Origin: Candidatus Woesebacteria bacterium GW2011_GWA1_38_8
GTDB lineage: Bacteria > Patescibacteriota > Microgenomatia > UBA8517
Assembly (NCBI GenBank): GCA_000993025.1
Contig: LBVJ01000020.1
Location: 1 to 35,077, forward strand
DNA: 35,077 bases
Reading direction: 5' to 3'
The position numbers and the translations under genes were made by a program. How positions within the stretch are numbered: position 1 is the first letter of the stretch; the number at the start of each line of letters is the position of its first letter. The notes beneath the pieces are model-generated. The model made no database searches. It was not told the origin of the DNA and saw only the letters and a list, made by a program, of their open reading frames with translations. Of the stretch, positions 6,510 to 35,077 are shown one piece after another.

Positions 6510-8558
<2,049 letters not shown>

Positions 8559-20490: not shown

Positions 20491-20645
20491 AATTAAATAC
20501 GAAATTCGGGAACTAAGTTCATAGAACCCGTTCGTCATGTCGAAATTCTAAACAAATATTAATTATTAAATTTCAAATATTTAAACATTAAGATTTGTGA
20601 TTTGGGTATTGTTTCGGATTTAGTGCTTCGGATTTCGAATTTTCA
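20491..20645. repeat. Intergenic AT-rich 155-bp element, family A (orientation opposite to 30981-31135)
   Basis: AATTAAATACGAAATTCGGGAACTAAGTTCATAGAACCCGTTCG...GTTTCGGATTTAGTGCTTCGGATTTCGAATTTT; reverse complement recurs at 30981-31135. Confidence 0.92.
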
Positions 20646-20665
20646 TTAATATGTCTATGTAGCCA

Positions 20666-20694
20666 TTGCCTCGTCAACTTGTTGTTACTATACT
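20666..20694 (+). promoter_or_regulatory. Possible sigma70-type promoter for pilD, leaderless arrangement
   Basis: TTGCCT - 17 nt - TATACT, with ATG at 20701 only 7 nt after the -10; no SD. Confidence 0.4.
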
Positions 20695-20700
20695 TACCTT

Positions 20701-21418
20701 ATGTCTAATATTCTTCTCCTATTTTCCCTCACCCTTTTCGGTCTTATCTTCGGATCTTTCATATCTGCTTTGTCGTACAGGTCAATTAAAGGGATAAGTA
20801 TTTTTAAGGGAAGGTCGATCTGTCCTCACTGCAAAAAAAAGATCGTTTGGAAAGATAATATACCTGTCTTTTCTTTTTTCTTTCTGAACGGCCGATCCCG
20901 CTGCTGCAAAAAATTAATATCTCTTCGCTATCCGGAAGACATTGTTGGGAATTACAACGCTACCCTACCTTTTACTTGTCAGTATATTTCTTATCACTTT
21001 GTTTGTAACAGATTTTGAACATAAACTGATACTGGATATATTTGTTTTCATTCCGTTTTTATTGACAGGTTTTTTGCTGGTATTTTTTAATCCGGACTAT
21101 ACATATGAAAATCTATTTCTCTCGTTTTGTACTGCGGGCTTTTTTCTTTTGATACATCTTGCAACACGCGGAAAGGGTATGGGTCTTGGGGATGTAAAGA
21201 TGGTGCTTGTCCCCCCCTTGATCTTGGGTTGGCCTTACACCCTGATATGGTTATTTTTGTCCTTTGTGATGGGGGCTGCCGTGGGGTCGTTTTTGATACT
21301 TATTGGTAAAGCTAAATTCGGGAAACATATCCCCTTTGGTCCGTTTCTAATCCTTGCTTATTTTTTGGTACTATTTTGGGGAGAGAGGTTGTTGTTCTTA
21401 ATACGATTAAATTACTAA
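20701..21418 (+). pseudogene. pilD: Prepilin peptidase PilD, split by frame change and internal deletion (ORFs 20701-21018 and 20942-21418)
   Basis: ORF 1 holds the N-terminal Cys domain (CPHCKKKIVWKDNIPVFSFFFLNGRSRCCKKLISLRYP); ORF 2 holds both catalytic Asp motifs (VTDFEHKLILD, GMGLGDVK). Reading frames differ by +1. Confidence 0.8.
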
Positions 21419-30980: not shown

Positions 30981-31135
30981 ATAAAATTCGAAATCCTAAG
31001 CACTAAATCCGAAACAATAATTAAATTACAAATATTAATGTTTAAAACATTGTAATTTTGGATTTGGAATTTGATTCGAATTTCGATATAACGAACGGGT
31101 TCTATGAACTTAGTTCCCGAATTTCGTGCTTAATT
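30981..31135. repeat. Intergenic 155-bp element, family A (inverted partner of 20491-20645), overlapping the recG stop codon
   Basis: Reverse complement AATTAAGCACGAAATTCGGGAACTAAGTTCATAGAACCCGTTCGTTATATCGAAATTC differs at 4 of 58 nt from 20491-20548. Confidence 0.93.
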
Positions 31136-33493: not shown

Positions 33494-34613
33494 TTACTTA
33501 ATAAGTAAAAACACTTTCTCTCCCACTTTTATTTTATCACCTATTTTTACTTTGTAAGCAGGTTCGGTGGCAACTTTTCCGTTAACATCTACTGAATTTT
33601 GTTGTATAAATCTTTTTGCATCGGATATGCTTTTAAGGTTTGTGTATGGAGCAATTGCCGAGGCTAAGTTTCCCCCCGATTCGATTTTTATATTGTACGA
33701 CGGCGCTTTTTCCTGAAAAGTATTTTCGAAATGAGATTTTGCTTTATTTGCTTCATCTTCGCTCCAAACGAGCTTTACTATTTCGTAGGCAAGACGCTTC
33801 TTCTCCCCCATTGGATCGTGGGTTATTTTCTCCTCAAGTCCCGAAAGTTCTACTTCGGTCAGAAGTTCAAATCCCGGAAAAATAGTCTCATCGGGAAACG
33901 ACATAATTCCACCGTAAAATTCATTGGGAGAAGAATCTAAAAATAATGCGTTCCCCGCCGTTTTTCCGACTTTCTTACCATCCTTATCGACCAGTAGTTT
34001 TGTGGCCAAAACATATTTTTCTTTATTTTTTATAGATTTGATTAAAGTTCTGCCTGCAAGCATATTAAATATCTGATCACTTCCACCTACTTCAAGATTT
34101 ACATCCATAAAAACACAATCGTAACCCTGTGCGATCGGGTATAGAAACTCATGCATATATATCGGTTCGTTGTTCTTTAACCTTTCCTGATACATGTCCC
34201 GCTCAATCATCTGCTGGACGGTAAAATTTGATGATATTTCTATCAGGTCTTTAAAAGTTACCTTGTCACTCCACTCGGAGTTGTACATAATTTCGGCTTT
34301 GTTTTCCCCCTCAAAATCAAGGATATTTTTTATTTGATTAACCCACGTTCGGGAATTTTCCAATACTTGTTCACGGGTTAATTTTTTTCTGGTAGCTTGT
34401 TTATCGTTTCATAACACCGACCAAATGACCAAGATGCAAAGACGGCATAGAAGGATCAAAACCTTGATACAGGGTAATTTTTTTCTCCTGCATCAATTTT
34501 TTTAAATTGTCCCCCGCCGGCAACAGCTCCGCCACTCCCCTTTTTAATACTTCATCTATATCCATGTGTTTGATGATATTTAACATTTTAGTATTTTTTT
34601 CTTTTAATTGCAC
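33494..34613 (-). pseudogene. tyrS: Tyrosyl-tRNA synthetase, disrupted by internal deletion and frame change (ORFs 34401-34613 and 33494-34363)
   Basis: ORF 1 has TLYQGFDPSMPSLHLGHLVGVMKR* (HIGH-type); second frame resumes DKQATRKKLTREQVLENSRTWVNQ...; KKVGKTAGNALFL (KMSKS region) and C-terminal S4 domain present. Confidence 0.85.
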
Positions 34614-34635
34614 TTGCTAAACGTAATGCTTATTC

Positions 34636-35077
34636 CTATAGCGACTTAATCCACGAGTCAAGAACATGGGAAATATTATCAATACTGCTTACACTAACCC
34701 ATTCTCCGTTTGAATGTATATTCTCTCCAATGGGTCCGAATACAACTGCAGGTATATTTTTAAAGTGTGCGTGTCGTGCGTCAGAGCTGACGTGATCAAA
34801 GCCCTTTATTTCTTTTATATTATTTTCACGGACGGCATGGGAGAAAGTCTTAAAGAGAACTGAGTTGATTGGGCAGTCTATTGGTGATTCACATTTTATT
34901 ACTAATACATTCTTTTTTCCAAATATCTTTTTAAAATCCTGTTCAATATTTTTAGGGTTATCGTTTGGGTTAAATCTAACATCACACCACAGGATTGCCT
35001 CATTGGGAATTTGGTTGATGGTATTTCCCGATGAGATTATTGAAAAGTTGAATGTCGTCTTTTTTGTCTCACGTTTC
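34636..35077 (-). CDS. M20-family metallopeptidase, C-terminal part (5' end runs off the window)
   Basis: Reverse complement ...ISSGNTINQIPNEAILWCDVRFNP...GFDHVSSDARHAHFKNIPAVVFGPIGENIHSNGEWVSVSSIDNISHVLDSWIKSL*; GPxGxNxHSxxEWV is typical of M20. Confidence 0.88.
   Translation of the reverse strand, partial: KRETKKTTFNFSIISSGNTINQIPNEAILWCDVRFNPNDNPKNIEQDFKKIFGKKNVLVIKCESPIDCPINSVLFKTFSHAVRENNIKEIKGFDHVSSDARHAHFKNIPAVVFGPIGENIHSNGEWVSVSSIDNISHVLDSWIKSL

Follow-up and report, generated by a model that had tools for sequence, protein, structure and literature searches.

The prepilin peptidase gene pilD is split into two halves in different reading frames in the draft metagenome-assembled genome studied here, and this split most likely reflects a local assembly error and not biology. 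In the living population, pilD is very probably a single uninterrupted gene, as it is in every relative examined. Specifically, short-read assembly and scaffolding would have joined two flanking pieces with ~89 nt omitted, and such an omission would remove one transmembrane (TM) helix and shift the pilD frame. We favour this explanation because tyrS, which is essential and lies on this contig too, contains a misjoin, because the same class of error occurs elsewhere in the assembly, because the relatives possess intact genes, and because pilD is single-copy and undecayed. The preliminary description of this DNA had preferred a true deletion, with an assembly error as the finding that would overturn it; by way of the error class and the intact relatives, the latter is now the best-supported explanation.

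Genomic setting

The draft genome spans 1.04 Mb in 59 contigs and is 92% complete; the window, meaning the whole 35,077-nt stretch of DNA analysed, is one of these contigs (C20). It harbours a type IV pilus locus comprising pilB, pilT, pilC, prepilins, pilD, further prepilins and pilM, flanked by gyrA, gyrB, rnc, recG and tyrS. Except for its final ~670 nt, the window is broadly collinear with contig C1 of the same-genus genome G001. A dispersed intergenic repeat is also present as two inverted 153-nt copies (20491-20643 and 30983-31135; 85% alike), one of which lies shortly upstream of pilD, and 20 full or partial matches to this repeat occur genome-wide.

pilD as assembled

The gene is broken over positions 20701-21418 of the forward strand and passes from frame 1 into frame 2 at a break point placed within 20935-20959 by tblastn and by alignment to 29 relatives; the exact join position is ambiguous inside this interval, and Ns are absent at the join. 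Two forward-strand reading frames result: ORF 1 (20701-21018; frame 1, 105 aa) and ORF 2 (20942-21418; frame 2, 158 aa, TTG start). The 5′ part of pilD (20701-20940, frame 1) corresponds to A24_N_bact, with the N-terminal TM helix and the Cys-containing cytoplasmic domain, and the 3′ part (20942-21418, frame 2) corresponds to the A24 catalytic domain, including both catalytic Asp residues in the motifs VTDFEH and GMGLGD. The A24_N_bact profile (PF06750) matches ORF 1 with an E value of 1.2e-22 over profile positions 1-67 of 84, curtailed at the break, and Peptidase_A24 (PF01478) matches ORF 2 with an E value of 1e-11 over positions 1-103 of 104. Both matches are far beyond chance, and bear out the earlier placement of the two domains in different frames.

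Comparison with bacterial PilD/GspO (MEROPS A24; PF06750 plus PF01478) reveals that both domains, both catalytic Asp residues and the locus position pilB-pilT-pilC-pilin-pilD-pilM, collinear with the relative, are shared, whereas the window pilD as assembled is one TM segment short and lies in two frames. Among named GTDB genomes, the closest match to the Peptidase_A24 part was a Candidatus Woesebacteria metagenome-assembled genome at 55% identity, which makes a member of the candidate phyla radiation (CPR) the most likely source. Searches with ORF 2 gave no match to PDB sequences at E values up to 1 and none to NCBIfam; no independent copy of pilD was present in IMG/VR contigs, and a plasmid collection yielded weak A24 matches only.

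The first Cys pair of the window pilD is CPHC, and the second, in the region 20890-20910, is S-x-C-C. The preliminary description had called this second pair degenerate; however, S-x-C-C also occurs in five intact PilDs (G001, G011, G012, G027 and G029; loci L003 and L216-L219), and because intact relatives carry it too, the pair represents no damage and was dismissed as a lesion. In Pseudomonas PilD, the zinc-site cysteines are required for methylation and dispensable for cleavage (PMC3584216).

Comparison with intact relatives

PilD is present in 54 of the 56 genomes searched. Both domains lie within one ORF in all 33 relatives whose reading frames were read, G001 included, in contrast to the two frames of the window pilD, and the frame is uninterrupted at the break site in every one of them. 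Four relatives had been flagged for a stop within the match, and proved on reading to be intact except at their C-terminal ends.

The PilD of G001 is continuous (272 aa) and ~72% identical to that of the window, with residues 1-79 matching the 5′ piece and residues 118-264 the 3′ piece, each at 72% identity. The matching pieces stop at 20934 and resume at 20960, such that 25 nt face 38 residues, a net loss of 89 nt. Hydropathy indicates that the TM segment PLIEFFTMLTFLLIGLVYT of G001, together with its loop, is exactly what the window pilD has lost. This segment, which follows RYP-L-[IV]-E and precedes the helix of the first catalytic Asp, is missing from the window; in the 29 aligned relatives, 15-45 residues, a hydrophobic segment among them, separate RYP from the next helix, compared to ~8 residue-equivalents here. 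Alignment with the relatives, whose PilDs are continuous and contain the helix, therefore upholds the earlier proposal that a TM segment and ~70-90 nt have been lost.

A pair of well-conserved halves that differ in frame and are separated by little sequence could also be read as a product of programmed frameshifting or translational bypassing that fuses both frames into one protein. Recoding, however, could not restore the missing helix, which is present in all 29 aligned relatives, and no relative read has a frame change at the break site. The A6 run at 20908-20913 is likewise unusable, since slippage there is blocked by the frame-2 TAA at 20915-20917, as had been recognized from the outset. 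We regard recoding of pilD as vanishingly unlikely.

Could ORF 2 instead serve as an enzyme in its own right? Translation from the TTG at 20942 or 20945 would give an A24 core free of the cysteine domain, similar to archaeal FlaK, which is active without a four-cysteine domain (PMC3584216). The presence of both catalytic Asp residues, nearly the whole of PF01478 and about six hydrophobic segments (by hydropathy) is consistent with a stand-alone or two-piece enzyme, as is the GGAAG located 3-6 nt upstream of the candidate TTG starts, albeit within old coding sequence where it can be chance. Unlike the FlaK type, however, ORF 2 begins within a longer conserved gene; ORF 1 is conserved as far as the break and continues as a non-homologous tail, and the break itself matches the error class of the assembly. 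None of the 33 PilDs read keeps a separate ORF 2-like A24 ORF, and no relative examined uses a stand-alone form. A functional enzyme of this kind is highly improbable, and the stand-alone A24 core suggested earlier for ORF 2 lacks support from the relatives, which have both domains in one ORF. We also give very little credence to a real junction at which ORF 2, by itself or together with the ORF 1 fragment, processes the ~20 prepilin-like proteins, such that type IV pili of a bacterium would depend on a FlaK-like core. A genuine join would provide a natural test of whether a bacterial prepilin peptidase can function when the cysteine domain and second TM helix are missing.

Copy number, constraint and the possibility of a recent deletion

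A single pilD is present in the genome, which contains one Peptidase_A24 and one A24_N domain; the search for another copy, an idea of the preliminary description, found no second pilD in the assembly. Values of dN relative to G001 are 0.23 and 0.22 for the two halves of pilD, compared to 0.23 for recG and 0.24 for rnc, with synonymous sites near saturation. By this measure both halves look constrained, with no apparent decay beyond the break. Genes with a prepilin N-methylation motif number 20 in the ~1 Mb genome (13624-25501, and contigs C10, C11, C15 and C28), a large set of pilins to be served by a single prepilin peptidase.

The main rival to an assembly error is a real and very recent deletion of ~89 nt, by which pilD would be a pseudogene in the sequenced strain and pilins would no longer be processed. 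A recent event would give an identical sequence without detectable decay, the flanks of the break are clean and collinear with G001, and a DNA search of the genome with 20641-21140 did not find the missing pilD piece on another contig. Strain-level loss of pili is, moreover, plausible. Set against these points are the retention of the rest of the pilus locus and of the 20 prepilin-like genes, the conservation of PilD in 54 of 56 relatives, and the recurrence of this type of break in other genes, among them the essential tyrS of this contig, in which it is a misjoin. A recent deletion is thus unlikely, and the biological splitting of PilD by an internal deletion, as originally put forward, is unsupported.

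No direct repeats flank the pilD break. The sole exact 10-mer pair nearby, CTGCAAAAAA at 20829 and 20904, fails to bracket it, and deletion via direct repeats was ruled out for this reason.

The tyrS join on the same contig

The essential gene tyrS (33494-34567) exhibits a frame change accompanied by the loss of 77 nt at 34405/34406. In a search of the genome itself, tyrS profile positions 87-403 were located at 33500-34402, and a match to positions 7-65 lay in a different frame (34389-34559), while the start of a separate contig, C46, encodes positions 7-117 without interruption. C46 begins with 99 nt that exactly match window positions 34307-34405 (minus strand), the final correct stretch of tyrS, and the sequences diverge at the very next base. 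Beyond this point C46 carries on through tyrS, whereas the window switches to another N-terminal tyrS sequence, which shares 79% identity with that of C46 and is followed by an M20 peptidase fragment (together 34406-35077, minus strand). Collinearity with G001 runs along C46 from tyrS across the adjacent PBP, pheT and pheS genes but does not extend to the window tail, which identifies C46 as the true continuation of tyrS and the tail as wrongly joined. By these sequence comparisons, the join at 34405/34406 is proven to be a misassembly, and the ~670 nt at the end of the window are foreign to this position.

Unlike the tyrS join, the pilD join lacks direct proof of being wrong. We only infer its membership of the assembly's error class, because a displaced contig with the missing piece was not found.

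Abrupt joins elsewhere in the assembly

Chen et al. (2020; PMC7111523) described local assembly and scaffolding errors in metagenome-assembled genomes, including a CPR example of 1.13 Mb that contained 13 local errors. In that work, abrupt unsupported joins gave rise to protein-coding genes that were wrong or incomplete, Ns at scaffold joins had duplicated sequence around them, and exact overlaps between contig ends approximated the largest k-mer. The present assembly displays similar features: in addition to its abrupt joins, exact 99-nt overlaps connect the contig ends C46/C3, C10/C15, C26/C7, C16/C55 and C27/C48, and an exact 29-nt repeat occurs on either side of 'NN' near position 16873 of C11, within a pilB-like gene, which is an unmerged scaffold join and one of the frame-changing joins of the C11 cluster described below. 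The published errors are defined by a test of read support, whereas the pilD join is judged here from assembled sequence alone.

To gauge the frequency of split genes, ORFs of one relative, G001, were compared with 0.93 Mb of the genome, and the reverse comparison was also performed. Frame changes split 9 of 227 G001 proteins in the genome under study, seven of them with net indels of 31-115 nt (89, 77, 43, 115, 55, 31 and 100 nt). The reverse comparison gave 5 split proteins among 235, only one of them with an indel this large. Fisher tests gave p = 0.29 for all splits and p = 0.035 for large-indel splits (7 versus 1), the latter being indicative only because the 30-nt indel cut was picked after the sizes were seen. 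The genome-wide contrast with G001 is therefore modest.

The main value of these observations is one of caution, in that ~3% of the genes comparable with G001 carry abrupt joins that mimic deletions or gene splits. In drafts of this kind, a biological interpretation of a split or truncated gene should wait until the gene has been compared with the reads or, at a minimum, with breaks in nearby essential genes.

Within gyrB, a 75-nt tandem near-duplicate (7202-7351, minus strand; 72 of 75 positions identical) adds 25 residues without counterpart in the GyrB of G001. All three differences between the copies are synonymous, and the duplicate probably represents variant contig ends, derived from strain variants, left side by side and unmerged. 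A second pilus-like cluster, which includes a pilB paralog, is located at 13154-18787 of C11 (locus L161) and contains frame-changing joins in four ORFs.
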